Source: Liolophura sinensis | Taxonomy: Eukaryota; Mollusca; Polyplacophora; Chitonida; Chitonidae | DNA: 64,000 nucleotides | Direction: 5' to 3' | Assembly: GCF_032854445.1 (NCBI RefSeq) | Contig: NC_088302.1 | Location: forward strand, 42,632,645 to 42,696,644 | In this document: positions 4,985 through 62,400 of the stretch, piece by piece | Layout: each line of letters begins with the position of its first letter | Numbering within the stretch: position 1 is the first letter of the stretch | Notes under the pieces: model-generated | What the model was told of the DNA's origin: nothing | Seen by the model: the letters and a program-made list of their open reading frames with translations, nothing else | The model's database searches: none | Translations under genes and position numbers: made by a program

Positions 4985-7900
4985 ATGGCGGTGTTTGTGT
5001 TATGCCTGGGATGGCTCGTGCTATCATTAGGCGTTCTCATCGGCTATATTTTGATGCATTTAGAACTTTTACCAATACCAATTAAACATCTGTACCTTTT
5101 TGGTAAATTAAGGAAAAGAACAGAGCCACCTTCCTTCGTAAGATATGCAGATGTTCCAAAAAGGTAACGATGACAGATGAGGACTAGCTCACGAAAATTG
5201 GACCTTTTTCTATACGAGATATATTCCGAGGCCAAGAATTGCCTGCTGGCTTGGCTTGTTCCAAAGTGCCGTGCATGTAAAAAAATGTTAAGAAGAGTTC
5301 TTCCTTAGAACGGGGTGTTCGACAGAAATACGGTTCTGTAGAATTAACCAGGCGAAAATAATAATAGATTTATTTGTCTACCGCTATTTGGCTGGAAGAT
5401 CATTCCCACAAATTTTCTCACTTACAGCGATGGTGGACAGTTTTAATTTTTCTTGGGTGGAAAGTGGAGTGCCAAGCACAATTCACCAGCCTTTAGCAAA
5501 TTACCAGTATGCGTTCTCACACTTGTGACGTAGAGATATGGGGGATTACATGGCTTACAAACAGTGAGAGAGGGTGAATCTTCGAATTCCATGTCCAAAT
5601 CCGGTTTTGAACCCTTGTGTGTCCTGATGATTAAAAGTCAATCACCTTAACCTCTAGGCCACAGCCCGCCATCCATTATAATACATGTTGATCATACCTT
5701 TGTTTAAAAAAGGCACTTCTGATTGACAAGGAGGCTTATAAAATCTCTGAAAATCAGACTTCCCTTAACATGTTTATACGCTTGGCACTATGATTAGAAC
5801 AAGCTAAGCAGCAAGCTGTCAAACATTACATCAGTACGGCACAGTTATACGCAGTGTTCTCAAACGTGGAGATGGTGATGTCATGCTGCGTACTCTAGTG
5901 AGTAGGCATACTGTATACTGTACAAATGCTGTGAAGTGAGAAGATGTGTATGTGAGAAGGTCTGTCAGAAACCTGCAGATGGTCATGGCTTTTCCTCTTG
6001 GCTCTGCTTGGTTTCCTCCCACCATAATGCTAGGCACCTTCATGTAAGTGAAATAGTACAGCATAATAATACATAGATCAAATATAAAGTAAATAGATAA
6101 ATAGACGCAGTGCAGCATTACTGTAACATGTATACTGGTGTGTTAATTTGTCTAGATGTAGACATCTACTGATAGCTTCATAACACCAGGTAGCAAGTTG
6201 ATAGACGGGATGTTAAACTGCTGACACTAGGTATGTGTTCAGTGATAGTGTTGGACTGGGATTTCTGGATTCACCTGTTTTTATTGTGTTCCAACTTAAA
6301 ACATAAATCGACCGCTTTTGCGGCCTCGTGGTTAAAAGTCGGGATCAAACCAGGGTCGGGTCAAAGACTTTATAAATGGTACATTGTGCTGTCTCGCTTG
6401 GCACTCAGCACTGAGAGGTTAGAACAAGGATACAGGACTGGCTGGCCAAGTGTCAGCATAATGTTTGGGGTATCATATTTGGAGTCTTCGGCATGGTACA
6501 GTGGCAGCAGCACTTTGAGGCATGGACTCGCCGTAGCACGAGAAGACACATTATATGTACATACATCTGATGACCTGTTCTTGTCTTATGACTGAAGTTT
6601 TATTAAGTACGATGTTAAACCCCAAGCATACATAAAACATAAATCATACACGTACAAGCACATGTATGTATTTACAAAGAAATACAAGAAGCTAATGAAA
6701 TGGTTTCGATATTCATCCATTCTCTTCGTCTGTTTTAGGTGGTTTCTACATTTCTACCTGATCGGCTTGGTGTGTAATACAAGTGCTCTCATGATAATCC
6801 TGGAGGTGTGGAAGGTGCACCTGCCCGGTTCAACTGAAGACATCCTACAGGTGCTCCATATAGGCAAAGCAAACTATCGCGGTAAGTCCGACGTGGTTGC
6901 TGGCTGTAACTGTCAGGCAGTTAATCAATGAGGTTGCGTGTTCTGATCCAGCTTTTCGCTGTTTCTGATATGGCTATGTCAGAGTGTTTGCCAGGTACCT
7001 AGCGAAGGTTGGTGGTTTTATTCCAGGCATGGGTATGGTGTGCATACCTGTGTGTCACATACATGCAAAGGTTGTTGGTAACTGTCAACGAGCACGCCAG
7101 TTTCCTCCTCTCATAGTAGTGACGACTGTTGTATAAGTGAAACATTCTTGGGTATGGCATATAAAAGCTTATCAGGCTATAGCTGCATGCAGTTTGACGG
7201 CTTTCAAGCAGTCTGTATACGCAGGTTTTAGCATCTGCTTCAGAACAAATGAGTTGGTACGAATACCGAGGGAATGGACACTCACTTAATTTGGGGGCGT
7301 ATTCTTTCACTTTTGTAACTAATAAATGTAAAACAAAATCATTTGCTCCCTGATGGTCATGTGCTGTTGTTCAGATTGTGTCGTCGTTTAGTTGATGTGC
7401 TGTTGTTGTTGTTGTAGCTGAGCCCAGCCCAGTGTTACCTGTCCTGCTGGTATTAGTTTGTGAGGAGCTGCAGGTATTACGACGTCTATATGAGTGTATG
7501 GCCGTCAGTGTTTACTCTGACAGCAAGATGAGCGTCATCCATTACTTCACAGGAATCATCATGTACTCAACATTTGGGGTCAGTCTTCTAGCCGAGCTGG
7601 TGAGCAGGGAGAGGATGCCAACAGAAGGTGAGTGAGAACTGGTGTCACTGTCTGCACCACTGTCTGGGGTCAGTCTGCAGTCAGTCTGCCAGCCAAGCTG
7701 GTGAGGAGGGAGAGGATGCCAACAGAAGGTGAGTGAGAACTGGTGTCACTGTCTGTACCACTGTCTGGGGTCAGTCTGCGGTCAGTCTGCCAGCCGAGCT
7801 GGTGAGGAGGGAGAGGATGCCAACAGAAGGTGAAGGAGAACTATCATTGTCTTTACCATTGTCTGAGGTCAGTCTTCTGACAGAGGTAGTGAGCAGGGAG

Positions 7901-9316
7901 AGGATGCCAACAGAAGGTGAGTGGGAACTGTCATTGTCTTTACCATTGTCTGAGGTCAGTCTTCTGACAGAGATAGTGAGCAGGGAGAGGATGCCAACAG
8001 AAGGTGAAGGAGAACTATCACTGTCTTTACCATTGTCTGGGGTCAGTCTTCTGACAGAGGTAGTGAGAGGGAGAGGATGCCAACAGAAGGTGAGTGGGAA
8101 CTCTGTCACTGTGTTTACGACAGTTTTATATCAGTCTGCTAGCATAACTGGTGAGGAGGGTGAGGGTGCTAGCAGAAGGTGAGTGAAAAGTCTGTCACTG
8201 TCTTTACCACTGTTTGAGATCAGTCTATTAGCAGAGCTGGTGAGCAGGGAGAGGATGCCAACAGAAGGTGAGTATCTTTACCATAGTTTGAGATATGAAG
8301 GCTGCTCACTATGGAATTCAGAGATCTATACATCTCTATACATCTGTACATCTCAGAATGTCTTAATGACATTGTTTTTTCCTATGTTGTTTTTACAGTG
8401 AACTGGGGTCTAAGTTTACCTCAGTGTTTAGGGCTGGTGGTGTTTGTCTGGGCTTGGTGTAAGCAATACTCACTGACAAAGATGCTGGCTCGACTGAGGA
8501 CACAGTCAACAAGTAAGTGCTTGTGTACAAGATCAGGATGGCTCAGCTGGTTGGACCAAGAGCTTAAGTGAGCTTTTCATACTTCTTTAGGGTCGATTAA
8601 ATGTTACATGTGAAAAAGAATAAAGTGTGATGGAGTATATGTAGCTAAACATTCTCTTTTGGGTAACATTTTCTGTCTTAGTGCACGCAGTATATTGACC
8701 CTTGACCACTTAGCCCGCAAATGTTCATGAAGGCCAACCATATCCAACATACAAAGCAGTGCACATAAAGTGGATCTCTTTGCTTGCGTAGGACTTTATG
8801 CTGATTTATGTATTGTCTCATTTTTTCAGTGCTCATTCTTCATATGTACAGTTAATTCGTTTTCTGCCTAAGCAAGTCAGTTTTAGTGCTTGTGAACTAC
8901 CTCTTTGTTTTAAGAGCCTAACAATACACAAGGTGTACATATTACAGAAATACACAAAGGAGTACACTGCTTGGATCGACTTCTTTTTGGCAGGCAATGT
9001 TCGCGATTGTCTAAGTTTTTTAATACTATGAGCGTTCTTGTTGTGCAATGTTGTAGGTGGATCTGGGGACATTTCCCATCACCTCCCATCTGGGGACTTG
9101 TTTGAGCTGGTCTCATGCCCCCACTACCTCATGGAAATCCTGCTGTACACCTCATTCTGCCTCATCACCCGCTTCCAGTCCCCCACACTCAACTGTGTGG
9201 CCTGCTTTGTGCTGGTCAATCAGCTTATCTCGGCCCAGTTGACCCACACCTGGTACAGGGCTTCCTTCTACAAATACCCACCACACAGACGGGCCATTCT
9301 GCCCTACCTGTTGTAG
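4985..9316 (+). CDS. SRD5A3: SRD5A3, polyprenol reductase (steroid 5-alpha-reductase 3), complete, five exons
   Basis: Exons: 4985-5163, 6739-6881, 7418-7627, 8399-8512, 9057-9316 (stop 9314-9316). All junctions are GT/AG with consistent phases, giving 301 aa against about 318 in human. The start was chosen because an in-frame TGA lies just upstream (about 4951) and the next codons form a membrane segment. Conserved marks are DVPKR followed by WFLHFY at the exon 1/2 junction, RRLYECMAVSVYS in exon 3, and in exon 5 HHLPSGDLFELVS (residues 223-235) and the C-terminal KYPPHRRAILPYLL. The family is an ER multipass NADPH-dependent enzyme that reduces polyprenol in the route to dolichol, the lipid carrier for N-glycosylation. 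Two minisatellites have grown from this gene's own exon ends (7572-8296 and 9288-9590). It is convergent with MAGT1. Confidence 0.95.
5360..5690 (-). mobile_element. SINE-C, near full length, in SRD5A3 intron 1
   Basis: On the - strand it starts with a tRNA-like head: TGGCCTAGAGGTTAAGG as box A, GGTTCAAAACCGG as box B. It runs into a body containing the reverse of ATTTTCTCACTTACAGCGATGG. Related pieces lie at 15270, 55140 and 59072. Confidence 0.7.
5960..6058 (+). mobile_element. SINE-A fragment in SRD5A3 intron 1
   Basis: Contains AACCTGCAGATGGTCATGG, GGTTTCCTCCCACCATAATG and TAAGTGAAAT in forward SINE-A order. Confidence 0.75.
6300..6640 (+). mobile_element. SINE-B in SRD5A3 intron 1
   Basis: Body with CTTGGCACTCAGCACTGAGA and a tail with TATGACTGAAGTT and GTACGATGTTAAACCCC. 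It ends about 100 bp before exon 2. Confidence 0.78.
7572..8296 (+). repeat. Minisatellite made from the end of SRD5A3 exon 3 plus its 5' splice site
   Basis: Eight units of about 85-105 bp. The first is the authentic exon 3 end; seven more fill intron 3. Each unit contains GGTCAGTCT, GAGAGGATGCCAACAGAAG and a following GGTGAGTG or GGTGAAGG, so exon end and donor travel together. Several copies keep an intact AAG|GTGAGT and could act as alternative donors. Confidence 0.92.
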
Positions 9317-9590
9317 GAGACGGGCCATTCTACCCTACCTGTTGTAGCACACTGGCCATTCTACTCTACCTGTTGTAACAGACTGGCCATTCTACCCTAC
9401 CTGTTGTAGCACACTGGCCATTGTACTCTACCTGATGTAGCAGACTGGCCATTCTACCCTACCTGTTGTAGCAGACTGGCCATTCTACCCTACCTGTTGT
9501 AGCAGACTGGCCATTCCACCCTACCTGTTGTAGCAGACTGGCCATTCTACCCTACCTGTTGCAGCACGCTGGCTATTCTACCCATGCTCT
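9288..9590 (+). repeat. 31-bp minisatellite made from the C-terminal coding end and stop codon of SRD5A3
   Basis: The codons for the last residues and the stop (CCCTACCTGTTGTAG) are copied about nine more times immediately downstream. Each copy carries GGCCATTCTACCCTACC at a 31-bp spacing. The array occupies the first ~270 bp of the 3' UTR. Confidence 0.9.
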
Positions 9591-9699
9591 TATTGTAAAT
9601 GTAGTGTTGGCATCAAGAGTAGTGTTTTAAGACTTTTACGAGCTTCTGAAAGTTCAGTTTTACGTCAGACTTTAGGTAAAAATCCTCAACGTTATCCTA

Positions 9700-10705
9700 T
9701 TTGTACATGTATGTGCTATACCAGGTGTGTGCTATACCAGGTGTGTGCGCTATACCAGGTGTGTGCGCTATACCAGGTGTATGCGCTCTACCAGGTGTAT
9801 GGCCTCTACCAGGTGTGTGCGCTATACCAGGTGTATGTGCTGTACCAGGTGTATGCGCTATACCAGGTGTGTGCGCTATACCAGGTGTGTGTGCTATACC
9901 AGGTGTATGTGCTGTACCAGGTGTATGCGCTGTACCAGGTGTATGCGCTATACCAGGTGTGTGCGCTATACCAGGTGTATAGGCTCTACCAGGTGTGTGT
10001 GCTATACCAGGTGAATGTGCTGTACCAGGTGTGTGCGCTATACCAGGTGTGTGCGCTATACCAGGTGTGTGTGCTGTACCAGGTGTGTGCGCTATACCAG
10101 GTGTGTGCGCTATACCAGGTGTGTGTGCTATACCAGGTGTGTGCGCTATACCAGGTGTGTGCTATACCAGGTGTGTGTGCTATACCAGGTGTATGCGCTA
10201 TACCAGGTGTATGGGCTATACCAGGTGTGTGCGCTATACCAGGTGTGTGCTATACCAGGTGTGTGTGCTATACCAGGTGTGTGGGCTATACCAGGTGTGT
10301 GCGCTATACCAGGTGTGTGCGCAATACCAGGTGTATGTGCCATACCAGGTGTGTGGGCTCTACCAGGTGTGTGCGCTATACCAGGTGTGTGTGCTATACC
10401 AGGTGTGTGCACTCTGCCAGGTGTGTGCGCTATACTAGGTGTATGTGCTATACTAGGTGTGTGTGCTATACCAGGTGTGTGCACTCTGCCAGGTGTGTGG
10501 GCTATACCAGGTGTATGTGCTATACCAGGTGTGTGCGCTATACTAGGTGTGTGCGCTATACCAGGTGTGTGCGCTCTGCCAGGTGTGTGCGCTATACCAG
10601 GTGTATGGGCTCTACCAGGTGTGTGCGCTATACTAGGCGTGTGCGCTATACCAGGTGTATGGGCTATACCAGGTGTGTGCACTATACCAGGTGTATGTTA
10701 TCCAC
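9700..10705. repeat. 18-bp minisatellite
   Basis: Roughly 55 copies of an 18-bp unit, CTATACCAGGTGTGTGCG with variants, lie just downstream of SRD5A3. Because 18 is a multiple of three, every frame looks open. The apparent ORFs of 90-340 codons are repeat artefacts. Confidence 0.93.
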
Positions 10706-10732
10706 ACATAGGCTATTCTGCCTTGCTGTGTA

Positions 10733-10977: not shown

Positions 10978-10979
10978 GC

Positions 10980-12440: not shown

Positions 12441-12463
12441 AGGTGGTACAAGTTACAAGATAT

Positions 12464-12786: not shown

Positions 12787-15700
12787 TTACTTGAACAGGA
12801 AACTGAAAGTACAAGAAAACTTGCTTCTGTACTATGTTCAATAGTTCAAAAGTATATAAAAGTAATTCAGTGCAATTTAAAATTCTTAACGTAAAATAGG
12901 GCATGTAAAAACAAATGGTCTTTCGCAATGCTTTTAATATGTACTACATGTACTTACAGTTTTCAATCGGAACACCTGAACTGTAAGGATAACTCTGGGG
13001 CCCATTTCACAATACTTCTGTAACCGGCTAAGGGTCATTTAGCCGACTAACGTAAGTAGGCTATGAATAAAATTGACCAGGGCGTTTCAAAAAAATAAAA
13101 GTGTCTAATGCTTAGCTGGCTCACCATATATAGCTGGCTTCATGGCCGCTCTGCAGCAATCTGATTGGTTCATCAATGCCAATACTTTGCTAAATTATAT
13201 TCAAAATATATTTAATTATTAAAATTACTATATATGAATAACAGAAAAAATGTGATGTTTACATGTGAATACTGAACACTTGACACCTACCTGTAAGGAT
13301 AAGCCTGGTATTTGGATGTGAACACTGAACACCTGACACCTAGCTGTAAGGATAACCCTGGTATTTAGATCTGAACACTGAACAATTGACACCTACCTGT
13401 AAGGATAACCTCTGGTATTTACATCTGAACACTGAACACCTGACATATAGCTGTAAGGATAACCCTGGTATTTAGATCTGAACACTTAACACCTGGCACC
13501 TACCTGTAAGGATAACCCTGGTATTTAGATCTGAACACTGAACACCTGATACCTACCTGTAAGGATAACCCTGGTATTTAGATCTGAACACTGACAACAG
13601 AAGACTGAAGAAGAATGCCAGGCAGCCCAAACCTACCAAGGCTAAGACTGGAACAGAAACAAATAGAAACTTTAGGCACTGTAGGCAGTGGCATTCTGCA
13701 TGTATATCTGTTAACCCCATGTTGTAGAATTCTACAACTACAACATTGCATATGCCAGAAACATATGCAAAGCCAGAAACATGCTTCTAAAATAAATGTG
13801 AATTACCAACGTGCATCCAAAGTTAGGCAATCATAGCAAATGTTTAATAACTTGTTAATATGCCATTAGTAATTAAATTGACAGATCTACATCAAGCTAA
13901 ATTGACAGATCCCAACATTTCGTTGCGAATGATGTGAGCTACATGCTGTTCTTCAGATCATCTACTGAAAACCATGTTCACAACGAATTGATGAGATTTT
14001 CATAAGAGATTTTTAATGAAACCCTACTACTTCGTAGGGCAGTGAGTTGCATACATCTTTAATTCACTTTCAGGAATATTTCACTTATACAATTGTCGTA
14101 AGACAGTTTAATGCATGAAGCAAACTGCAGAGAGCTGAATAAAACCACCGACCTATGGCAAGTACATGTAAAAAAACAAGCGTTCTAACATCTGAAGCAT
14201 TGAGATATATCCAATGACATGATTCAATATTCATGTTTAACTTTTGGCACACAAATGATCAAAGAAGAACTTCTGTGACAGGATATTTTGTGATAATATG
14301 CCTGTTTTGTGAGATAATCACAGAATATGCACATTATCCCCTATTCTATAAAAATCTACCTATTCTGTGATAAATATATCAGGTGGGGGAACTTACTTCT
14401 CTTTTTCCCAGCATCTCCTTTCACCAAGTTAGCCTCATTTAGCAAAATCATACCAGCAACAACAGCGACATCTGATTGGTTAAGTCCAACATGTCAACAG
14501 TTCTGGTATTCATCAATAAGCCTGTCCTGTATACAAGTAAACAAGGTTAAGAGGACTCTTCTCTTCATGTAACATGTGGCTTGCCACGAGTTACAAGTTT
14601 ACTGTATAAGAGTACAGGTTACAGGTTCACCCATTTTCCTAATATACACTTGTGTAAACTTCAATGAGATTCACATTAGTTATGTTAATGCTAGGATTTT
14701 GCATTTTTTTTTTTTATCTATTGAATGATGTAATCTGTGTATTTTGTTTCACAAATCCCTGATTCAATTTCTTCTGTGAAACAACACAACTGACCTACAC
14801 AACACATTGGTGTTCTTTTTAAGTGGAAAGAAAATTGAATACTGGGTTAAAAAATGTGTGAATGGTTGCCCAGTTTGTAGTTACCAGCAGAAGTAGTGAT
14901 CACATGCCAAGGATGCAGTGGAACATTGTGCCTGTTTATACTATCACCTAATTTCCTGGAGATTGAAGATAACTGGCTAAAAGGGCCAAAAACTGGCAAA
15001 AAGGATACTCAGCAACATTACAATGTAAGTCTCCATGATGAACTGGCCCTGGCTACTGCTGTGAATGTAGAGCTTAGAAACAGAATAGAAAACATAAATC
15101 ACAATGAGGCTGGATTAATACAAATCATAGATGCCAGCAGATGCCCACAGCCATTAGTGCACGAATAATATGACATACAGTATCAAGGTAATGGGATCAG
15201 GGTATGTGAAAAAACAAAACAAAAAAAACAACCACTCTAATAATCAACTGCTGTCAATCATCAATTGACATGAATTTCTCACTTACACAATGGCGTCCAG
15301 TTTGATGGGTGGAGAAAATGGAATGCCTGGATTAAACCACTGACCTTTGGTAAGTTACCCATGAGCTCTTCCACTAGTGAAAAGTCACGTAGTTACTGGT
15401 TGAAAGCTTCATGAACCTTTTTGCATATGAAAGATCAACTTGAAAGAAATTTAGGCACATGTATAATTTGTTTTTCGAGGCAAAACTGGTTGGATAGTCC
15501 AATATCAGGGCCAACTCGGGATCTCATCTATTTCCTAATGAGCTCATGATGACGTTACACACATTTACTATGAACATTTTCATTAATCCTAAGTACTGAA
15601 TACAGAACTCTGGGGAGAGTTCATCTTTACTCCTCTTTCTCTTGTGAGTTGTATGGCAGATTGTACATCTACAAAATTGGATTCCACAATATACACAAGA

Positions 15701-23424: not shown

Positions 23425-23724
23425 GAGTAGCACTGGGCAGCCGCCATCCATGAGGAGAACGTCCACGAGGAGAACGGACATCCATGAGCAGAACGGAACA
23501 AGTAACTTGTTCGTTTACGAATAATTGGGCAAGGTACGAGAGTATAGGCCTGCATATTTATATAGGCCTATAGCCGAGCAGATAAATTCTCAACACTTTA
23601 AACCCCTTATTATCCGAAAACACAGACATTACTGTAACCCTAAAGACCTTCTCTAATGTGTCATTGTTAATTAGTAACCTAATAGTCCTCCATCACTAAC
23701 TTAAAGAAAAAATATTAAAGATCC

Positions 23725-26700
23725 ACGAGGAGGACCTTGCCTAGTTCACCTCCCCATAGGTATAAAGTATAACATCCACGAGGAGGACGGTGGCTAATTT
23801 ACCTTCCTACTGGCATAAGATACTACATCGACGAGAAGGACAGTGGCTAATTTACCTTCCTCCAGGTAAAAGGTACAACATCCACGAGGAGGACGGTGGC
23901 TAATTTACCCTCATATAGGTATAAAGTACAACATCCACGAGGAGGACGGCGGCTTATTTACCTTCCTCCAGGTAAAAGGTACAACATCCACGAGGAGGAC
24001 GGTGGCTAATTTACCTTCATATAGCCATAAAGTACAACATCCACGAGGAGGACGGTGGCTAATTTACCTTCATGTAGGTATAAAGTACAACATCCACGAG
24101 GAGGACGGTTGCTAGTTTACCTTCCTATAAGTATGAGGTAGAACCTCCACGAGGAGGACGGTGGCTACTTTACCTTACTGCAGGTATCAGGTACAACATC
24201 CACGAGGAGGACGGTGGCTAATTTAACTTCATATAGGTATAAGGTACAACATCCATGAGGAGGACGGTGGCTAATTTACCTTCCTATAGCCATAAAGTAC
24301 AACATCCACGAGGAGGACGGTGGCTAATTTACCTTCCTGCAGGTATAAGGTACAACATCCATGAGGAGGACGGTGACCAGTTTACCTTCCTGCAGATATC
24401 AGGTACAACATCTACAAAGAACACGGAGGCTAATTTACCGTACTATAGGTATAAAGTACAACATCCATGAGGAGGACGGTGGCCAATTTACCTTCCTGCA
24501 GGTATTAGGTACCGTACAACATCCACAAAGAGGACGGTGGCTAATTTATCTTTCCTCAGGTGTAAAGTACAACATCCACGAAGGGAACGTTGGCTAGTTT
24601 ACCTTTCTGGAGGTGTCAGGTATAACATCCACGAGGAGGACTGTGCCTAATTTACCTTCCTACTGCTATAAAGTACAACATCCATGAGGAGGACGGTGGC
24701 TAATTTACCTCCATGTAGGTATAAGGTACAACATCCAGGAGGAGGACGAGGGCTAACTTACCTCCATGTAGGCATGAGGTACAACATCCACGCGGAGGAC
24801 GGTGGCTAATTTGCTTTCCCATAGGTATAAGGTACAACATCCACGATGAGGACGGTGGCTAATTTACCTTCATATAGTTATAAAGTACAACATCCACGAG
24901 GAGGACGGTGGCTAATTTACCTTCATATAGGTATAAAGTACAACATCCGTAAGGAGGACGGTGGCTAATTTACCTCCATGTAGGTATAAGGTACAACATC
25001 CACGAGGAGGACGGTGGCTAACTTACCTCCATGTAAGCATGGGGTACAACATCCACGAGGAGGACGGTGGCTAATTTACCTTCATATAGGTATAAAGTAC
25101 AACATCCACGAGGAGGACGGTGGCTAATTTACCTTCCTATAGCCATAAAGTACAACATGCACGAGGAGGACGGTGGCTAATTTACCTTCATGTAGGTATA
25201 AAGTACAACATCCATGAGGAGGACGGTGGCCAATTTACCTTCCTGCAGGTATTAGGTACAACATCCACAAAGAGGACGGTGGCTAATTTACCTTTCCTCA
25301 GGCGTAAAGTACAACACCCACGAAGGGAACGTTGGCTAGTTTACCTTTCTGGAGGTGTCAGGTATAACATCCACGAGGAGGACTGTGCCTAATTTACCTT
25401 CCTACTGGTATAAAGTGCAACATCCAGGAGGAGGACGGGGGCTAATTTACCTCCATGTAGGCATGAGGTACAACATCCACCCGGAGGACGGTGGCTAATT
25501 TGCTTTCCCATAGGTATAAGGTACAACATCCACGATGAGGACGGTGGCTAATTTACCTTCATATAGTTATAAAGTACAACATCCACGAGGAGGACGGTGG
25601 CTAATTTACCTTCCTATAGGTACAAAGTACAACATCCACGAGGAGGACGGTGGCTAATTTACCTTCCTTTAGCCATAAAGTACAACATCCACGAGGAGGA
25701 CGGTGGCTAATTTACTTTCCTATAGCCATAAAGTACAACATCCACGAGGAGGACGGTGGCTAATTTACCTTCATGTAGGTATAAAGTACAACATCCACGA
25801 GGAGGACGGTGGTTAATTTACCTTCCTATAGCTATAAAGTACAACATCCATGAGGAGGACGGTGGCTAGTTTACCTTCCTATAGGTATTAGTTAGAACAT
25901 CGACGAAGAGGACGATGGCTACTTTACTTTACTGCAGGTATAAAGTTCAACATCCACGAGGAGGACGGTGACTAGTTTACCTTTCTATAGGTATAAAGTT
26001 CAACATCCACGAGGAGGACGGTGGCTGATTTACCTTCATATAGGTATAAAGTACAACATCCACGAGGAGGAGGTTGACTAGTTTACCTTTCTATAGGTAT
26101 AAAGTTCAACATCCACGAGGAGGACGGTGACTAGTTTACCTTTCTACTGGTATAAAGTACAACATCCACGATAAGGACGGTGGCTAGTTTACCTTTCTGG
26201 AGGGGTCAGTTACAACATCCACGAGGAGGACGGTGCCTAATTTACCTTCATACTGGTATAAAGTACAACATCCATAAGGAGGGCGGTGGCTTATTTACCT
26301 CCATGTAGGTATAAGGTACAACATCCACGAGGAGGACGGTGGCTAGTTTACCTTTCTATAGGTATAAAGTTCAACATCCACGAGGAGGACGGTGGCTAGT
26401 TTACCTTCCTACTGGTATAAAGTACAACATCCACGAGGAGGACGGTGGCTAATTTACCTTCCTACATGTATAAAATTCAACATCCACGAGGAGGACGGTG
26501 ACTAGTTTATCTTTCTATAGGTATAAAGTTCAACATCCACGAGGAGGACGGTGACTAGTTTACCTTCCTACTGGTATAAAGTACAACATCCACGATAAGG
26601 ACGGTGGCTAGTTTACCTTTCTGGAGGGGTCAGTTACAACATCCACGAGGAGGACGGTGCCTAATTTACCTTCATACTGGTATAAAGTACAACATCCATA

Positions 26701-38424: not shown

Positions 38425-41400
38425 GAAAAAGGATGGTAAATTAGTCACCGTCCTCCTCGTGGATTTTGTACCTGATACCTGTAGGAACGTCAATTAACCA
38501 CCGTCCTCCTTATGGATGTTGTACTTTATACCTATAGGAACATAAATTAGTCACCGTCCTCCTCATTGATGTTGTACTTTATAGCTAAAGGAAGGTAAAG
38601 AAGCCACCGTCCTCCTCGTGGATGTTGTACTTTATACCTGCAGGAACATAAATTAGTCACCGTCCTCCTCGTGGATGTTGTACTTTATACATATAGGGAT
38701 GTAAATTAGCCACCGTCCTCCTTCTGGATGTTGTACTCTGTACCTATAGAAAGACAAAGCATCCACCGTCCTCCTCATGGATGTTGTTCCTGATACCTGG
38801 AGGAAGGTAAATTAGCCACTGTCCTCCTCGTGGATGTTGTACTTCATACCTGCAGGAAGGTAAATTAGCCACCGTCCTCATCGTGGATGTTGTTCCTGAT
38901 ACCTGTAGAAAAGTAAATTAGCCACCGTCCTCCTCGTGGATGTTGTACTTTATACCTGCTGAAAGGTAAAGTAGCCGCCGTCCTCCTCGTGGATGTTGTA
39001 CTTTATACCGGTACCTACAAGAAGTTAAATTAGCCACCGTCCTCCTCGTGGATGTTGTACTTTATACCTGGAGAAAGGTAAATTAGCCACCGTCCTCCTC
39101 GTGGATGTTGTACTTTATACCTAGAGAAAGGTAAATTAGCCACCGTCCTCCTCGTGGATGCTGTACTTTATACCTACAGTAAGTTAAATTAGCCATCGTC
39201 TTCCTCGTGGATGTTGTACTTTATACCTAGAGAAAGGTAAAGTAGCCGCCGTCCTCCTCGTGGATGTTGTACTTTATACCTGCAGAAAGGTAAAGTAGCC
39301 GCCGTCCTCCTCGTGGATGTTGTACTTTATACCTACAGGAAGGTAAATTAGCCACCGTCCTCCTCGTGGATGTTGTACTTTATACCTACAGGAAGTTAAA
39401 TTTGCCGCCGTCCTCCTCGTGGATGTTGTACTTTATACCTACAGGAAGGTAAATTAGCCACCGTCCTCCTCGTGGATGTTGTACTTTATACCTGCAGGAA
39501 GTTAAATTAGCCACCGTTCTCCTCGTGGATGTTGTACTTTATACTTATATGAAGGTAAATTAGCCACCGTCCTCCTCGTGGATGCTGGACTTTATACCTG
39601 GAGAAAGGTAAATTAGCCACCGTTTTCCTCGTGGATGTTGTACTTTATACCTATATGAAGGTAAATTAGCCACCGTCGTCCTCGTGGATGTTGTACTTTA
39701 TACCTGCAGGAAGTTAAATTAGCCACCGTTCTCCTCGTGGATGTTGTACTTTATACTTATATGAAGGTAAATTAGCCACCGTCGTCCTCGTGGATGTTGT
39801 ACTTTATACCTGCAGGAAGTTAAATTAGCCACCGTCCTCCTCGTGGATGTTGTACTTTATACCTGCAGGAAGATAAATTAGCCACCGTCCTCCTCGTGGA
39901 TGTTGTACTTTATACCTGCGGGAAGTTAAATTAGCCACCGTCCTCCTCGTGGATGTTGTACTTTATACCTGGAGAAAGGTAAATTAGCCACCGTCCTCCT
40001 CGTGGATGTTGTACTTTATACCTGCAGAAAGGTAAAGTAGCCGCCGTCCTCCTCGTGGATGTTGTACTTTATACCTACAGGAAGGTAAATTAGCCACCGT
40101 CCTCCTCGTGGATGTTGTACTTTATACCAACAGGAAGTTAAATTTGCCGCCGTCCTCCTCGTGGATGTTGTACTTTATACCTACAGGAAGGTAAATTAGC
40201 TACCGTCCTCCTCGTGGATGTTGTACTTTATACCTACAGGAAGTTAAATTTGCCGCCGTCCTCCTCGTGGATGTTGTACTTTATACCTACAGGAAGGTAA
40301 ATTAGCCACCGTCCTTCTCGAGGATGCTGTACTTTATACCTGCAGAAAGGTAAAGTAGCCGCGGTCCTCCTCGTGGATGCTGGACTTTATACCGGGAGAA
40401 AGGTAAATTAGCCACCGTTTTCCTCGTGGATGTTGTACTTTATACCTATATGAAGGTAAATTAGCCACCGTCCTCCTCGTGGATGTTGTACTTTATATCT
40501 GCAGGAAGTTAAATTAGCCACCGTCCTCCTCGTGGATGTTGTACTTTATACCTACAGGAAGTTAAATTAGCCACCGTCCTCCTCGTGGATGTTGTACTTT
40601 ATACCTACAGGAAGGTAAATTAGCCACCGTTCTCCTCGTGGATGTTGTACTTTATACCTACAGGAAGTTAAATTAGCCGCCGTCCTCCTCGTGGATGTTG
40701 TACTTTATACCTGCAGGAAGGTAAATTAGCCACCGTCCTCCTCGTGGATGTTGTATTTTATACCTGCAGGAAGTTAAATAAGCCACCGTTCTCTTAGTGG
40801 ATGTTGTACTTTATACCTACAGGAAGTTAAATTAGCCACCGTCCTCCTCGTGGATGTTGTATTTTATACCTGCAGGAAGTTAAATAAGCCACCGTTCTCC
40901 TCGTGGATGTTGTACTTTATACCTACCGGAAGTTAAATTAGCCACCGTTCTCCTCGTGGATGTTGTACTTTATACTTATATGAAGGTAAATTAGCCACCG
41001 TCCTCCTCGTGGATGTTGTACTTTATACCTGCAGGAAGTTAAATTAGCCACCGTCCTCCTCGTGGATGTTGTACTTTATACCTGCGGGAAGTTAAATTAG
41101 CCACCGTCCTCCTCGTGGATGTTGTACTTTATACCTGGAGAAAGGTAAATTAGCCACCGTCCTCCTCGTGGATGTTGTACTTTATACCTAGAGAAAGGTA
41201 AAGTATCCGCCGTCCTCCTCGTGGATATTGTACTTTATACCTGCAGGAAGGTAAATTAGCCACCGTCCTCCTCGTGGATGTTGTACTTTATACCTTCAGG
41301 AAGTTAAGTTTGCCGCCGTCCTCCTCGTGGATGTTGTACTTTATACCTACAGGAAGGTAAATTAGCCACCGTCCTCCTCGTGGGTGTTGTACTTTATACC

Positions 41401-42480
41401 TGCAGGAAGTTAAATTAGCCACCGTCCTCCTCGTGGATGTTGTATTTTATACCTGCAGGAAGTTAAATAAGCCACCGTTCTCTTCGTGGATGTTGTACTT
41501 TATACCTACCGGAAGTTAAATTAGCCACCATCCCCCTCGTGGATGTTGTATTTTATACCTGCAGGAAGTTAAATAAGCCGCCGTCCTCCTCGTGGATGTT
41601 GTACTTTATACCTACAGGAAGATAAATTAGCCACCGTCCTCCTCGTGGATGTTGTACTTTATACCTACAGGAAGTTAAATTAGCCGCCGCCCTCCTCGTG
41701 GATGTTGTACTTTATACCTACAGGAAGGTAAATTAGCCACCGTCCTCCTCGTGGATGTTGTATTTTATACTTGCAGGAAGTTAAATTAGCCATCGTCCTC
41801 CTCGTGGATGTTGTACTTTATACCTGCAGTAAGGTAAATTAGCCACCGTCCTCCTCGTGGATGTTGTACTTTATACCTGCAGGAAGTTAAATAAGCCACC
41901 GTTCTCTTCGTGGATGTTGTACTTTATACCTACCGGAAGTTAAATTAGCCACCATCCCCCTCGTGGATGTTGTATTTTATACCTACAGGAAGGTAAATTA
42001 GCCACCGTCCTCCTCGTGGATGTTGTACTTTATACCTACAGGAAGTTAAGTTTGCCGCCGTCCTCCTCGTGGATGTTGTACTTTATACCTACAGGAAGGT
42101 AAATTAGCCACCGTCCTCCTCGTGGATGTTGTACTTTATACCTGCAGGAAGTTAAATTAGCCACCGTCCTCCTCGTGGATGTTGTACTTCATACCTACAG
42201 GAAGGTAAATTAGCCACCGTCCTCTTTGTGGATGTTGTACTTTATACCTATATGAAATTAAATTAGCCGCCGTCCTCCTCGTGGATGTTGTACTCTATAC
42301 CTACAGGAAGTTAAATTAACCACAGTCCTCCTCGTGGATGTTGTATTTTATACCTGCAGGAAGTTAAATAAGCCACCGTCCTCCTCGTGGATGTTGTTTT
42401 TTATACCTGCAGGAAGTTAAATAAGCCACCGTCCTCCTCGTGGATGTTGTATTTTATACCTGCAGGAAGTTAAATAAGTT
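38425..42480 (-). repeat. 53-bp satellite array, right subterminal arm of the KDZ element
   Basis: About 76 units of the same 53-bp repeat as the left arm, in reverse orientation (CCGTCCTCCTCGTGGATG, TTGTACTTTATACC, CAGGAAGGTAAATTAG). Units here are more alike than in the left arm. Confidence 0.95.
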
Positions 42481-42481
42481 A

Positions 42482-43104
42482 AATACCAAGTACCTGTATA
42501 TTGTATAGGCTTAGTCCTATAGGCCTATGAACCCCATGTCGGGAAAACGGGTCTGGAGAGGCCTTGGGCTGTTGTATCCTTTTGATATAGAATACCGGTA
42601 CCTTGCCTTATTCATCATCTGTCGTCGATAGTTTGATAATTTATACCGATAATTTATAACATACCTTGTCTTACTCATCATCTGTTGTCGATAGTTCGAT
42701 AATTTGGGGAAGCACTGTAGTAAATAAAATTTAAGTTAATGGTGTCAGATATACAGTGATATAATCCGTATGTCTTTTTACTGAACACAAATGTGTAACT
42801 ATACCCCACTACTTTGCATTTCGCGCCATATGTATGGTCATGCGCACTGCAACGTCCTCCTGATGGATGTCCGTTCTCCTGGTGGATGTACTTCCGTTCC
42901 CCTCGTGGATGTAGGCTGACGAGTTTTGTTGGCTCAAGGCAGGTACATAATACCCATTTCAACGTCATCAGAGTTTGTTAACTCGTATCTTGCTCTCGGC
43001 TTCCACACCAATCAAATGTGCTGTTCCGTGTTGCGTGTTTTTATGTCAATATTGACAAGTTTACGAATGTATTTATTTTTTTGTTTTCACGAAACCTGTT
43101 TTTG
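42482..43104. other. Right end of the KDZ element and host flank (left contig end)
   Basis: 42482-42931 is the non-array end of the element, with the terminal motif cluster. 42932-42939 is the right target duplication GCTCAAGG. From 42940 the sequence should be the original upstream flank of MAGT1, cut by the gap. Confidence 0.65.
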
Positions 43105-43304
43105 NNNNNNNNNNNNNNNNNNNNNNNNNNNNNNNNNNNNNNNNNNNNNNNNNNNNNNNNNNNNNNNNNNNNNNNNNNNNNNNNNNNNNNNNNNNNNNNN
43201 NNNNNNNNNNNNNNNNNNNNNNNNNNNNNNNNNNNNNNNNNNNNNNNNNNNNNNNNNNNNNNNNNNNNNNNNNNNNNNNNNNNNNNNNNNNNNNNNNNNN
43301 NNNN
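43105..43304. other. Assembly gap (200 N)
   Basis: Exactly 200 Ns, a fixed-length scaffolding gap. ORFs reported across it are meaningless. Confidence 0.99.
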
Positions 43305-46300
43305 TATCTCCACCGAGCACTTGTTCAGTCTGAACTTGTATGTTTAATTTGTGCTCTTGTATACACAGTGCTTATTAGTACACGGACCCTGTCTGGGGAA
43401 TTTTGTGTATATTTCGTCATACACTCAGTTATACTGTGGATTTTCCCTCTTGTGAATTTGCCTCTGAGCATTTATGCCTGTGTGGTATATATTGTGAAAT
43501 ATATGCGTCCGTTTGGACTTGACACCGTAAGTACCTTAGTATTTGTATAGATACTGCTATCCTTTCTTGTTAAACTTAAGTACTTTAATATTTGTATAAG
43601 TCTTATTACCTGTTCTTGTTAAGCTAATAAATTGTTGTAAAATAAAATCTGCTTGTTTTGGTTACTTTTTTGTGCGGCTAGACTGTCGTGTATTTCGAAC
43701 AAGCCATCTCTTTATAATACAGGCAGTTTGGGTCGTAACACAGTTTATAATAGTTTTTCTGTAAAGGTTTTGGCAAACCGGATGAATACAATGCTGTAAC
43801 CAGCTTTAGGGATAGGAACTTGTTGAATTAGAGTTTCTGTTGGCAAACTCTCCATGGGGATGGGTTATGGCACTGCGCGAGGGCTCCTTAAAATACATAT
43901 ATTTAAACTAGAATGTGGTTGTTGATTTTTTTATTCAACTGTCCGGAATTGGTGGTCACTGGATTTCTCATATTCTGTGAATCGAGGATTATATTCTAAG
44001 GCTCTGTAAAAATTTTCTCATCTACGTACATGTAGAGAAAGGAAAAATCGGTTTCTCCTCGTTCGTGTTGGGCTTTTCCCATCTGCGGAGAAAAAGGATG
44101 GTAAATTAGTCACCGTCCTCCTCGTGGATTTTGTACCTGATACCTGTAGGAACGTCAATTAACCACCGTCCTCCTTATGGATGTTGTACTTTATACCTAT
44201 AGGAACATAAATTAGTCACCGTCCTCCTCATTGATGTTGTACTTTATAGCTAAAGGAAGGTAAAGAAGCCACCGTCCTCCTCGTGGATGTTGTACTTTAT
44301 ACCTGCAGGAACATAAATTAGTCACCGTCCTCCTCGTGGATGTTGTACTTTATACATATAGGGATGTAAATTAGCCACCGTCCTCCTTCTGGATGTTGTA
44401 CTCTGTACCTATAGAAAGACAAAGCATCCACCGTCCTCCTCATGGATGTTGTTCCTGATACCTGGAGGAAGGTAAATTAGCCACTGTCCTCCTCGTGGAT
44501 GTTGTACTTCATACCTGCAGGAAGGTAAATTAGCCACCGTCCTCATCGTGGATGTTGTTCCTGATACCTGTAGAAAAGTAAATTAGCCACCGTCCTCCTC
44601 GTGGATGTTGTACTTTATACCTGCTGAAAGGTAAAGTAGCCGCCGTCCTCCTCGTGGATGTTGTACTTTATACCGGTACCTACAAGAAGTTAAATTAGCC
44701 ACCGTCCTCCTCGTGGATGTTGTACTTTATACCTGGAGAAAGGTAAATTAGCCACCGTCCTCCTCGTGGATGTTGTACTTTATACCTAGAGAAAGGTAAA
44801 TTAGCCACCGTCCTCCTCGTGGATGCTGTACTTTATACCTACAGTAAGTTAAATTAGCCATCGTCTTCCTCGTGGATGTTGTACTTTATACCTAGAGAAA
44901 GGTAAAGTAGCCGCCGTCCTCCTCGTGGATGTTGTACTTTATACCTGCAGAAAGGTAAAGTAGCCGCCGTCCTCCTCGTGGATGTTGTACTTTATACCTA
45001 CAGGAAGGTAAATTAGCCACCGTCCTCCTCGTGGATGTTGTACTTTATACCTACAGGAAGTTAAATTTGCCGCCGTCCTCCTCGTGGATGTTGTACTTTA
45101 TACCTACAGGAAGGTAAATTAGCCACCGTCCTCCTCGTGGATGTTGTACTTTATACCTGCAGGAAGTTAAATTAGCCACCGTTCTCCTCGTGGATGTTGT
45201 ACTTTATACTTATATGAAGGTAAATTAGCCACCGTCCTCCTCGTGGATGCTGGACTTTATACCTGGAGAAAGGTAAATTAGCCACCGTTTTCCTCGTGGA
45301 TGTTGTACTTTATACCTATATGAAGGTAAATTAGCCACCGTCGTCCTCGTGGATGTTGTACTTTATACCTGCAGGAAGTTAAATTAGCCACCGTTCTCCT
45401 CGTGGATGTTGTACTTTATACTTATATGAAGGTAAATTAGCCACCGTCGTCCTCGTGGATGTTGTACTTTATACCTGCAGGAAGTTAAATTAGCCACCGT
45501 CCTCCTCGTGGATGTTGTACTTTATACCTGCAGGAAGATAAATTAGCCACCGTCCTCCTCGTGGATGTTGTACTTTATACCTGCGGGAAGTTAAATTAGC
45601 CACCGTCCTCCTCGTGGATGTTGTACTTTATACCTGGAGAAAGGTAAATTAGCCACCGTCCTCCTCGTGGATGTTGTACTTTATACCTGCAGAAAGGTAA
45701 AGTAGCCGCCGTCCTCCTCGTGGATGTTGTACTTTATACCTACAGGAAGGTAAATTAGCCACCGTCCTCCTCGTGGATGTTGTACTTTATACCAACAGGA
45801 AGTTAAATTTGCCGCCGTCCTCCTCGTGGATGTTGTACTTTATACCTACAGGAAGGTAAATTAGCTACCGTCCTCCTCGTGGATGTTGTACTTTATACCT
45901 ACAGGAAGTTAAATTTGCCGCCGTCCTCCTCGTGGATGTTGTACTTTATACCTACAGGAAGGTAAATTAGCCACCGTCCTTCTCGAGGATGCTGTACTTT
46001 ATACCTGCAGAAAGGTAAAGTAGCCGCGGTCCTCCTCGTGGATGCTGGACTTTATACCGGGAGAAAGGTAAATTAGCCACCGTTTTCCTCGTGGATGTTG
46101 TACTTTATACCTATATGAAGGTAAATTAGCCACCGTCCTCCTCGTGGATGTTGTACTTTATATCTGCAGGAAGTTAAATTAGCCACCGTCCTCCTCGTGG
46201 ATGTTGTACTTTATACCTACAGGAAGTTAAATTAGCCACCGTCCTCCTCGTGGATGTTGTACTTTATACCTACAGGAAGGTAAATTAGCCACCGTTCTCC

Positions 46301-48716
46301 TCGTGGATGTTGTACTTTATACCTACAGGAAGTTAAATTAGCCGCCGTCCTCCTCGTGGATGTTGTACTTTATACCTGCAGGAAGGTAAATTAGCCACCG
46401 TCCTCCTCGTGGATGTTGTATTTTATACCTGCAGGAAGTTAAATAAGCCACCGTTCTCTTAGTGGATGTTGTACTTTATACCTACAGGAAGTTAAATTAG
46501 CCACCGTCCTCCTCGTGGATGTTGTATTTTATACCTGCAGGAAGTTAAATAAGCCACCGTTCTCCTCGTGGATGTTGTACTTTATACCTACCGGAAGTTA
46601 AATTAGCCACCGTTATCCTCGTGGATGTTGTACTTTATACTTATATGAAGGTAAATTAGCCACCGTCCTCCTCGTGGATGTTGTACTTTATACCTGCAGG
46701 AAGTTAAATTAGCCACCGTCCTCCTCGTGGATGTTGTACTTTATACCTGCGGGAAGTTAAATTAGCCACCGTCCTCCTCGTGGATGTTGTACTTTATACC
46801 TGGAGAAAGGTAAATTAGCCACCGTCCTCCTCGTGGATGTTGTACTTTATACCTAGAGAAAGGTAAATTAGCCACCGTCCTCCTCGTGGATGTTGTACTT
46901 TATACCTTCAGGAAGTTAAGTTTGCCGCCGTCCTCCTCGTGGATGTTGTACTTTATACCTACAGGAAGGTAAATTAGCCACCGTCCTCCTCGTGGGTGTT
47001 GTACTTTATACCTGCAGGAAGTTAAATTAGCCACCGTCCTCCTCGTGGATGTTGTATTTTATACCTGCAGGAAGTTAAATAAGCCACCGTTCTCTTCGTG
47101 GATGTTGTACTTTATACCTACCGGAAGTTAAATTAGCCACCATCCCCCTCGTGGATGTTGTATTTTATACCTGCAGGAAGTTAAATAAGCCGCCGTCCTC
47201 CTCGTGGATGTTGTACTTTATACCTACAGGAAGATAAATTAGCCACCGTCCTCCTCGTGGATGTTGTACTTTATACCTACAGGAAGTTAAATTAGCCGCC
47301 GCCCTCCTCGTGGATGTTGTACTTTATACCTACAGGAAGGTAAATTAGCCACCGTCCTCCTCGTGGATGTTGTATTTTATACTTGCAGGAAGTTAAATTA
47401 GCCATCGTCCTCCTCGTGGATGTTGTACTTTATACCTGCAGTAAGGTAAATTAGCCACCGTCCTCCTCGTGGATGTTGTACTTTATACCTGCAGGAAGTT
47501 AAATAAGCCACCGTTCTCTTCGTGGATGTTGTACTTTATACCTACCGGAAGTTAAATTAGCCACCATCCCCCTCGTGGATGTTGTATTTTATACCTACAG
47601 GAAGGTAAATTAGCCACCGTCCTCCTCGTGGATGTTGTACTTTATACCTACAGGAAGTTAAGTTTGCCGCCGTCCTCCTCGTGGATGTTGTACTTTATAC
47701 CTACAGGAAGGTAAATTAGCCACCGTCCTCCTCGTGGATGTTGTACTTTATACCTGCAGGAAGTTAAATTAGCCACCGTCCTCCTCGTGGATGTTGTACT
47801 TCATACCTACAGGAAGGTAAATTAGCCACCGTCCTCTTTGTGGATGTTGTACTTTATACCTATATGAAATTAAATTAGCCGCCGTCCTCCTCGTGGATGT
47901 TGTACTCTATACCTACAGGAAGTTAAATTAACCACAGTCCTCCTCGTGGATGTTGTATTTTATACCTGCAGGAAGTTAAATAAGCCACCGTCCTCCTCGT
48001 GGATGTTGTTTTTTATACCTGCAGGAAGTTAAATAAGCCACCGTCCTCCTCGTGGATGTTGTATTTTATACCTGCAGGAAGTTAAATAAGTTAAATACCA
48101 AGTACCTGTATATTGTATAGGCTTAGTCCTATAGGCCTATGAACCCCATGTCGGGAAAACGGGTCTGGAGAGGCCTTGGGCTGTTGTATCCTTTTGATAT
48201 AGAATACCGGTACCTTGCCTTATTCATCATCTGTCGTCGATAGTTTGATAATTTATACCGATAATTTATAACATACCTTGTCTTACTCATCATCTGTTGT
48301 CGATAGTTCGATAATTTGGGGAAGCACTGTAGTAAATAAAATTTAAGTTAATGGTGTCAGATATACAGTGATATAATCCGTATGTCTTTTTACTGAACAC
48401 AAATGTGTAACTATACCCCACTACTTTGCATTTCGCGCCATATGTATGGTCATGCGCACTGCAACGTCCTCCTGATGGATGTCCGTTCTCCTGGTGGATG
48501 TACTTCCGTTCCCCTCGTGGATGTAGGCTGACGAGTTTTGTTGGCTCAAGGCAGGTACATAATACCCATTTCAACGTCATCAGAGTTTGTTAACTCGTAT
48601 CTTGCTCTCGGCTTCCACACCAATCAAATGTGCTGTTCCGTGTTGCGTGTTTTTATGTCAATATTGACAAGTTTACGAATGTATTTATTTTTTTGTTTTC
48701 ACGAAACCTGTTTTTG
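43305..48716. other. Second copy of 37640-43104, probable unmerged contig overlap
   Basis: Starts at the base equivalent to 37640 and stays collinear to 48716, which equals the last base before the gap. Lengths are 5412 and 5465 bp; the 53-bp difference is exactly one repeat unit (lost near 46865, present at about 41190-41270). It holds the 3' part of the solo LTR (to 43740), a 53-bp array (about 44090-48092), the element right end (48543) and the target duplication (48544-48551). Confidence 0.93.
44090..48092 (-). repeat. 53-bp satellite array (duplicate of the right arm)
   Basis: Same units in the same order as 38425-42480, one unit shorter and with a few base changes. Not an independent array if the overlap interpretation is right. 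Confidence 0.93.
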
Positions 48717-57675: not shown

Positions 57676-57694
57676 CAAAACGATAAGCTTGAAT

Positions 57695-59392: not shown

Positions 59393-59415
59393 TATTCTTC
59401 CATTTCCAGACGAGA

Positions 59416-62400
59416 ATGTGGTGTCTGGTAGGCGCCATCTTGGTTACGTTTGTCCGGGCTCAGGAGATACCAGTCTCGTAAGTATATAGACCTTAAATAT
59501 TGTCTTTTTATATCACACATTTCACATATTACTTGTATTATCAATTATAAATAAACCTCATACTGTAAAGAAAGTTTTCCAAACCATTAACACCAACATC
59601 GACAACAAAAGTTGATAACAATAATATCGTATTCAATAATTGCTTCTAGGTCTTTTCCAGCCTTTTATTTTCACAACCGTGAAAATTGCTGTAAGTTTGT
59701 CGTATTTTTTAAATTGTCAGGTTTCGTAAAGCGATACCATGTATAATATATGTCTGTTTAAACTCTTTAAATATAGCTATACCTAACAGATGTACACGAG
59801 ATTGCTGTCTTTCGAATCTGCTCAACAAAACAAAGTAACAAATAATATGCTGAACCAAAAAAGAAACTTCACATGTGTTACTTTATGTTCCAAACATACA
59901 GTACCCATATAAAACAAAGTGTTAAGCTCGTGGATAAATCTGGCTTATGGACGTAAAGGGTGTATACTAAAACAGGATTAGACATTAAGGTGCGTTTGGT
60001 GCACCATTCACACTCAGCGCTAGCATGATGGCGTCATTTTTTGATTTCACACGGACTAGCATCTGTATTGCAGACTGTTCAATATGGTGTATGCGATCGT
60101 AAAACTATTACACAAATGACCTAGCCGAATCTGATTGTCCTCGACATGTGTCGTCACACAAGGTCGTCCCGACCTAGGGCGATCAGATGTCGTACCCGTT
60201 TGATGTGCACTTATCCACTGGTTGCAAATTGCCTCTCTTCTGCATCACATTCAACAGCCACAGTAGAATGGCCAGCCTGGAGCATAACTGTGCACGTTCA
60301 CGGTCAACGTTTGTAATTTGTGACATTGTCTCTCAAGGATTGTTAGCGTGTTTTTTTTTTCTAATTGCCAGCAAATTCTGCACACGCTTTGGTGTTTGGT
60401 GAAATTGTTGTCACGTGTTGTCACGTGTTATCACGCATAAATACAGGGTCGAGTTTTCACAAAAGAGCGTGCTTCATGAACCCCGCCTAGTTCACCACAT
60501 TTGAAAATGATCGGATGCGTCAGATTATATCTGGTCATTATGGTTTTCGCCCATATTAACCACATCGTTCTATTCATTTTGATTATAATGCATTTAACCA
60601 AATGTGAAGTTTCTTCCTTTGTCGGGTATATGTGGAGAGGCATTTAGCGCTGTCCAAGACAGTTGATTGAGACAGTTCTGAATATTCACTTTTGGTGCAT
60701 TACATTGAAAATAGCTTGATACATTTTATTTTTGCCTATCTTAGCCAATTTATCTGTTTTAATTCTCCCATTAAACTATTGAAGTACACCCGGCCCCAAG
60801 TCTGAAGTGGTTACATATGGCGACACATATATCGTGGGTGTACCGCAGTGTATCCGGCCGGGCCTATCCACGGATGTGTACGTGGATATCGTGAGACGGG
60901 TGGGGCCATGCACCGTGCTGGTGGAGTTGTACAACCGCACGACGGGCATTGTGTACGCTTCCTCTCAGGATATCGTTCATCCAGGTAAGAACATCTGATG
61001 CTTATACCAACATTGTGTACGCCTTCTTTCAGGATATCGCTAATCCAGGTAAGAACATCTGATGCTTATACCAACACTGTGTACCCCTCCTCTCGGGATA
61101 TCGCTAATCCAGGTAAGAACATCTGATGCTTATACCAACACTGTGTACGCCTCCTCTCAGGATGTCGTTCATCCAGGTAAGAACATCTGATACGTATACC
61201 AACACTGTGTACCCCTCCTCTCGGGATATCGTTCATCCAGGTTAGAGCATCTGATACTTATACCAACACTGTGTACGCCTTCTTTCAGGATATCGCTAAT
61301 CCAGGTAAGAACATCTGATGCTTATACCAACACTGTGTACGCCTCCTCTCGGGATATCGTTCATCCAGGTAAGAACATCTGATGCTTATACCAACACTGT
61401 GTACGCCTCCTCTCAGGATATCGCTAATCCAGGTAAGAACATCTGATGATTATACCAACACTGTTTACGCCTCCTCTCAGGACATTGTTTATCCAGGCAA
61501 GAAATTCTGATACTTATACCAGCACCGTGTTCGCTTCCTCTCAGATACCGTTCATCCAGGTAAGAACTGCTGATTCTTATACTGATGTGAGGAAACTGAA
61601 TAGAGCCCAGGGGAAATCCACGTACATCCGCAGGCTGCTGGAAAATCTTATGGCCAGAGAAGAGGCCAGTATGAGCTGAATTGAACTCACAGCGACCGTA
61701 TTGAGTCATTGTGGTATGCTAGCGTGTTAACTACCTCAGCCACGGAGGCCCCGATACATTTGTATATTTTATTTTATTTATTTGTTTGGTGTTTTACGCC
61801 GCACTCAAGAATATTCCTAGAATATATGCTGGAGAGGAAGCCAGCATGAGTTGGACTTGAACTCACAGCCACCGCAGTGGTGAGAGACCCCTGGGTCATA
61901 ACGCTGCGCTAGTGCTAACCACGTGAACCACGGAGTACATTCGTAGAAGTGTATGGTCTATCAATATATAAGTGCTTATATGCTTATGCATTCTCTAAAA
62001 AAAATTGCATACCACTGATACCGCCTGTCACTGTGGATGGTTTTTGTGGATGTGCAATACAGCATTTGATAAATTCTGCACTGGTGACGTCAGATATATT
62101 AAAATTACATCAATACATATTTTTTACCTAATTCTGCTGAAGCCATGATGCTAGGAGTCGAATAATTTGATATTATTTAAATAGTTACATGAACACCTGG
62201 TAAACTGCCTGTGGTCATTGCTCTGGTTTTACTCTGTATTCTCCATTGTTTCATTTTAGCCACAGTACCGTGAATCATTCACACACAGTAGTTTCTAAAG
62301 TGAATTTGATTCTACGCGCCTCTTGTAAATTTGCGAACTTTTAACATCTCTGATTGTTGTTGCGTGTAGCATCGCTGAATCCTATTGCTGTTCTGCCAGT

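Follow-up and report, generated by a model that had tools for sequence, protein, structure and literature searches.

Mirage-type minisatellites at exon ends of the chiton Liolophura sinensis: tandem arrays across predicted 5' splice sites, with a modest donor bias

Tandem repeats whose units run across an exon–intron boundary are known from amphioxus as mirages; they were described in globin and Adh3 genes, where either boundary may be involved (PMC3087553), PGBD5 and TnC of the lancelet have been added to the list (PMC3902484), with Canestro 2002 cited there. Reverse-transcription PCR in amphioxus suggests that mirages do not disturb splicing (PMC3087553). Here, we describe minisatellites of this type in the chiton Liolophura sinensis, starting from a stretch of 64,000 nt (assembly GCF_032854445.1, NC_088302.1:42,632,645-42,696,644, forward strand), which is referred to as the window and to which the coordinates below refer unless another contig is named. 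The genome assembly was published as Liolophura japonica (PMC11068029), and a later correction renames the species L. sinensis. A preliminary description of the window had pointed to four arrays that repeat the last coding bases of an exon. Three of these (arrays 1, 3 and 4) span an exon–intron boundary, as do the arrays at 17 of 204 predicted donors sampled in the same genome, and the acceptor boundary is duplicated in the chiton as well (5 of 211 predicted acceptors), all of which resembles the amphioxus mirages; array 2 does not, in that it spans a stop codon. The chiton case differs further in that the host is a mollusc, in that a sampled frequency and a donor bias are available, and in that the arrays are known here from one haploid assembly alone. 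The class itself has been described before, as these mirages (PMC3087553), which weakens the reading given in the preliminary description. As far as our searches show, the arrays represent a real, common and already named class of repeat that is new in this phylum and has a modest bias toward donors.

Other described systems share single features with the chiton arrays. The minisatellite of human IFI6 (6-16) carries multiple splice donors (Turri 1995, cited in PMC4526556), and two of its downstream units serve as donors and give isoforms (PMC4526556); in the chiton, each tandem unit likewise offers a predicted donor after the exon, but the later donors are predicted only and mostly lead to a stop codon. 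Splicing can also be changed by variable internal tandem repeats that lie at exon–intron boundaries in human segmental duplications (PMC2812944); that variation is found between recent paralogs, whereas the chiton arrays sit at conserved exons of several gene families. In the Rogers model of intron gain (PMC4974935; see also PMC2809761), tandem duplication multiplies splice signals, as in the chiton, where, however, the duplications sit at existing introns. Minisatellites are also present in introns of earthworm metallothionein (PMC12783039) and in an abalone intron; in the available parts of these sources, boundary-spanning is not stated for the former and the latter is not described as such. 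In two chiton papers, a word search had no hit for 'tandem' (PMC11068029) and none for 'minisatellite' or 'tandem repeat' (PMC12005716), and no description of boundary-spanning arrays in a mollusc was found in the searched parts of the open-licence literature.

The four arrays of the window proved real and lie near the places given in the preliminary description. According to the copy tables, the repeated exonic part is the final 28-48 coding bases; arrays 1, 3 and 4 include the 5' splice site and array 2 the stop codon, and the four arrays belong to three genes, all as had been claimed, with arrays 1 and 2 in one gene. The reported unit lengths held for arrays 2 (31 bp) and 4 (64 bp); for array 1, the period given by Tandem Repeats Finder (TRF) is 87 instead of about 90, and the 57 bp reported for array 3 was not reproduced (period 53).

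Array 1 (7580..8274, plus strand) consists of an exon tail of 48 bases, the donor and the head of the intron, in units of about 87-101 bp; there are seven ungapped copies, or eight donor copies if one gapped copy is included, and the later copies match the first at 46-51 of 55 positions. The coding exon whose tail it repeats (7418..7627, plus strand; open frame 7396-7632, acceptor at 7418, donor GT at 7628) has an acceptor of modest weight-matrix score (3.6), and a Pfam search of its translation returned no meaningful match. Array 2 (9286..9595, plus strand) repeats the last 28 coding bases and the TAG stop in ten copies of a 31-bp unit, and its first copy ends on the stop codon (TAG, 9314-9316) of the gene that also carries array 1. 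The corresponding last coding exon (9059..9316, start approximate, plus strand) is of the 5-alpha-reductase family (PF02544, E=2.3e-19), and also matches a 3-oxo-5-alpha-steroid 4-dehydrogenase in PDB. The assignment of the array 1 exon to this gene is suggested by its open frame, its modest acceptor and its place before the 5-alpha-reductase exon; from context, the gene is presumably SRD5A3-like. An array of an 18-bp unit (about 55 copies, 9715-10694) begins about 120 bp past array 2, downstream of the stop codon of the same gene.

Array 3 (13258..13594, minus strand) comprises an exon tail of 38 bases and the donor in six copies of a 53-bp unit, two of which have lost the GT; the first donor is at 13556. 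Its coding exon (13557..13647, minus strand; donor GT 13556-13555) has both a predicted acceptor and a predicted donor and is part of an OST3/OST6 (MAGT1/TUSC3-like) gene (PF04756, E=2.5e-06, profile positions 265-294 of 294), and the exon upstream of it matches MAGT1 in PDB. A decayed copy of the unit (12975..13018, minus strand; 27 of 44 positions matching) lies about 240 bp past the array, separated from it by unrelated sequence, as if by an insertion into the array. Array 4 (60945..61582 by TRF end, plus strand) comprises an exon tail of 40 bases and the donor in about ten copies of a 64-bp unit, nine of them ungapped at period 64 from position 60945. Its coding exon (60783..60984, start provisional, plus strand; open frame, donor GT at 60985) has no real match in Pfam or PDB; two similar open exons (47-49% amino-acid identity) are present elsewhere on the same contig, and the exon is presumably macroglobulin-like. 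In a genome search, which gives lower bounds for repeats, arrays 1, 3 and 4 each matched their own locus alone; they are therefore regarded as locally born, and an origin from a transposon or a dispersed satellite was rejected. The window holds 15 distinct arrays in total (period at least 10, at least 2.8 copies), and the four treated here are the selection of the preliminary description; some of the other 11 may touch exons as well.

The frequency of such arrays was determined in 239 homology-defined exons, sampled by protein family in two sets. Set 1 comprises 187 exons (45 kinase, 56 myosin, 86 kinesin) out of 304 family matches (133, 73 and 98, respectively), which were picked by hand before the sequence was seen, mostly long open frames and multi-stop matches being left out; set 2 comprises 52 of 67 chaperonin and adaptin matches, the choice favouring regions that hold several exons. 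A simple frequency weight matrix yielded a predicted donor for 204 of the 239 exons and a predicted acceptor for 211.

Arrays span 13 of 159 donors and 3 of 167 acceptors in set 1; set 2, which is too small to be tested alone, points in the same direction (4 of 45 and 2 of 44). Pooled, this amounts to 17 of 204 donors versus 5 of 211 acceptors (Fisher p=0.0079). The donor-spanning arrays are distributed over all five families (kinase 3/41, kinesin 5/70, myosin 5/48, chaperonin 3/28, adaptin 1/17) and over 15 of 107 sampled 50-kb bins, and the phenomenon thus extends beyond the window. When the overlap was varied at a score of at least 100, the donor–acceptor contrast gave p=0.01-0.03 at a minimum of 1.9 copies and p=0.05-0.13 at a minimum of three; the latter filter is harsh, since short fetched flanks cut long arrays. 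The arrays include between 5 and 115 exonic bases, so that their start is at no constant distance from the donor. Tandem arrays cover 19.2 of 190.7 kb and 8.0 of 68.8 kb of the sampled regions (about 10%), and at donors their coverage declines gradually from the intron into the exon. At the sampled loci (L001-L180), the 150 bp or so before acceptors are poor in arrays, unlike the sequence after donors; selection on splice signals predicts coverage of this shape at donors and acceptors.

Two measures were used for the comparison of exon ends with introns. The density of upstream array edges is 1.12 per kb in the last 60 exon bases (13 in 11,628 bp) and 0.18 per kb over the 350 intron bases that follow (13 in 71,382 bp), and the mirror baseline, i.e. 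right edges upstream of acceptors, is 0.34 per kb (21 in 61,189 bp). Right edges in exon heads (5 in 12,027 bp, 0.42 per kb) do not differ significantly from this baseline (p=0.43); the remaining edge counts (0.08 and 0.10 per kb) fall below all of these but are truncated by the fetched flanks. The second measure, a form of the one proposed in the preliminary description, is how often a 30-mer recurs within the following 300 bases, and here exon ends (10/204) show no excess over intronic sites at +5 (15/204), +60 (15/203) and +110 (20/200); the values were 3/194, 10/194 and 11/194 for the upstream intron, 3/211 for exon starts, 3/204 for exon interiors and 0/204 for shuffled sequence. The two measures differ because arrays that start in an exon also cover intron sites: 15 of the 22 arrays covering intron position +110 begin in the exon, versus 5 of 17 at -140 on the acceptor side that reach the exon (p=0.025). 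The predicted enrichment of exon ends over intronic positions was thus obtained for array edges and failed for 30-mers. In our reading, exon ends are about as array-prone as the intron, array starts being modestly enriched in exon tails, which form no hotspot of coverage.

Later copies of the donor are alignable in 15 of the 17 sampled arrays. Reading on from the first donor, a stop codon is met before the second in 13 of these 15; the exceptions are L004, which is open and out of frame, and one of two arrays at L166, the sole case that is both open and in frame. The coding frames of window arrays 1, 3 and 4 also stop just past the first donor. Graded productive splicing, which the preliminary description had suggested, is therefore doubtful. 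At L166 (G000:C8:53404370-53408030), the end of a chaperonin exon (PF00118; C8:53405971-53406162, minus strand) is repeated in a unit of 66 bp, a multiple of three. The translation remains open through about seven copies, with an open unit of 22 codons and the same donor score (5.6) in the later copies, and an in-frame extension of the exon is possible, judged from the sequence.

The authentic donor was compared with the mean of its copies in 17 arrays (14 sampled, 3 from the window), and scores higher in 11, equal in four and lower in two (p=0.02). By the same predicted scores, the best later copy equals or exceeds the authentic donor in 14 of the 17 arrays, and the donor score remains above 5 in many copies. 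Authentic donors are stronger in array exons than in the other exons (5.86 versus 4.61, p=0.013; p=0.007-0.04 with better-placed donors only), which is consistent with, and no proof of, a filter whereby arrays survive if the first donor can win. Selection against later donors was dropped as the cause of their weakness, since neutral decay predicts the same outcome of 11 to 2 with four ties. Some arrays have later copies that are near identical in their exonic part and in which the donor is weakened in all or most copies (L004, L154) or has lost its GT (L093).

The arrays are probably best explained as mirage-type minisatellites, i.e. as the product of ordinary local tandem duplication that is tolerated since the first copy keeps the exon intact. 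A short local tandem duplication would straddle a boundary between coding and non-coding sequence, and slippage or unequal exchange would then multiply it. The first copy would stay joined to the body of the exon and keep the exon and its donor (or stop codon) working, while the extra copies would land in the intron or the 3' untranslated region and be nearly neutral; splicing would stay with the first donor, and the later donors would be decoys that mostly lead to a stop codon. This explanation is backed by the abundance of arrays, by the involvement of both boundaries, by the variable exonic part, by the parity of exon ends and introns in 30-mer recurrence, by the shape of array coverage around donors and acceptors, by the stronger authentic donors, by the single genomic locus of each of arrays 1, 3 and 4 and by the amphioxus RT-PCR. 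The lower frequency of acceptor-spanning arrays most likely reflects a poorer tolerance of duplication of the branch point, the pyrimidine tract and the AG in front of the exon. The order noted in the preliminary description, with the authentic exon end first and the copies downstream, was observed throughout the window arrays; as a sign of directed growth it does not stand, because the first copy must presumably adjoin the exon body or the gene breaks, and the polarity is thus nearly forced by survival of the gene.

Several observations weigh against tolerance of ordinary duplications as the full account. Simple tolerance predicts no surplus of array starts in exon tails over introns, yet exon tails hold 3.3 times the mirror baseline (13 seen versus 4.0 expected, p=0.0015). 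Nor does base composition remove the surplus: 13 donor-spanning arrays were seen versus 5.0 expected from the array rate of intron windows matched for G+C content (GC) (2.6-fold, p=0.002, or a mean of 0.007 once uncertainty in the rate is included), an expectation based on thin bins (46 intron-only arrays, seven of them in the top bin); the corresponding values for acceptor-spanning arrays are 5 seen and 3.9 expected. GC predicts an enrichment of about 1.5-fold, and composition as the whole cause was rejected. Further, the 17 donor cases include three weak ones (L125 with 2.4 copies at 78%, and L132 and L135 with five exonic bases each), all splice sites are predicted and none is RNA-supported, and weaker donors in the copies are also expected from neutral decay and so do not prove a filter. 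The residual two- to three-fold excess of exon-tail starts beyond composition could reflect biased birth or biased retention.

Biased birth would result from a sequence-independent mutational process that acts on position at exon–intron junctions, as suggested in the preliminary description; links to transcription, to R-loops or to pausing of the polymerase at 5' splice sites are examples. The piling-up of edges in exon tails, the GC-matched surplus, the asymmetry between arrays at +110 and at -140 and the unrelated sequences of the units all speak for such a process, and exon ends exceeded exon starts as it predicts (p=0.008). We nevertheless consider it unlikely: 30-mer recurrence is no higher than at intron sites, the contrast with acceptors loses significance at three or more copies, array 2 is located at a stop codon where no splicing occurs, GC alone yields part of the enrichment, exon starts are affected too, and different selection at donors and acceptors can mimic the pattern. 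The opposite position, that arrays are so common that some cover exon ends by chance and were then read selectively, draws on the 15 arrays of the window, on the tenth of the sampled DNA that lies in arrays and on exon-end recurrence at the level of the intron background; it is improbable in view of the edge pile-up and of the donor/acceptor asymmetry, both of which point the same way in the small set 2. Retention of stacked donors by selection, for sturdier splicing or for shielding of the intron by U1 from premature polyadenylation, would agree with the many copies scoring above 5 and with the stronger donors of array exons. It is the most doubtful of these alternatives, given the weakened or lost donors in L004, L093 and L154 and the stop past the first donor in 13 of 15 arrays; for U1 (telescripting), sense donors do not outnumber antisense donors in intron-only arrays (1 versus 1 of 47), on which ground this form of retention was rejected. 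Taken as a whole, the interpretation in the preliminary description is partly supported, and tolerated local duplication remains our preferred reading.

A genome-wide search for donor motifs was also made. Three AGGTAAG at minisatellite spacing gave 2473 matches versus 1272 for the reversed pattern, and two CAGGTAAGT gave 470 versus 232, both counts being dominated by long arrays. A hand count of clusters on contig C1 gave at least 15 versus 8, with the first list spanning 93.4 of 96.4 Mb, which is not significant (p=0.21). Among 17 clusters fetched, five (L188, L190, L193, L194, L197) have, by frame alone, an acceptor-like site in a frame that is open to the first donor-like site; with such a sign of possible exon anchoring in a minority of clusters, donor-motif arrays were dropped as evidence. 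Elsewhere in the window, two large arrays of one 53-bp unit are present in opposite orientation (23721-27117, about 64 copies; 38430-48087, about 182 copies), and the latter seems to contain repeated blocks of about 5.6 kb, judged from matching TRF rows (37863/43528 and 42853/48465).

If about 8% of chiton donors carry such stacks, mirages would be a common genome feature, beyond a few lancelet genes. The chiton would then offer many natural cases of spliceosome choice among near-identical donors, and natural cases for asking whether new introns still arise through tandem duplication of splice sites; gene annotators would also be warned that many exon ends are ambiguous by construction. A bolder proposition, which we put forward tentatively and hold to be unlikely, is that a mutational process recurrent in animals as distant as chiton and amphioxus favours tandem duplications across 5' splice junctions regardless of sequence, such that thousands of introns in one genome begin with stacks of their own donor. 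Such a process, if real, would be a constant source of material for the gain of introns, the extension of exons and in-frame repeats in proteins, e.g. that of the chaperonin exon at L166.

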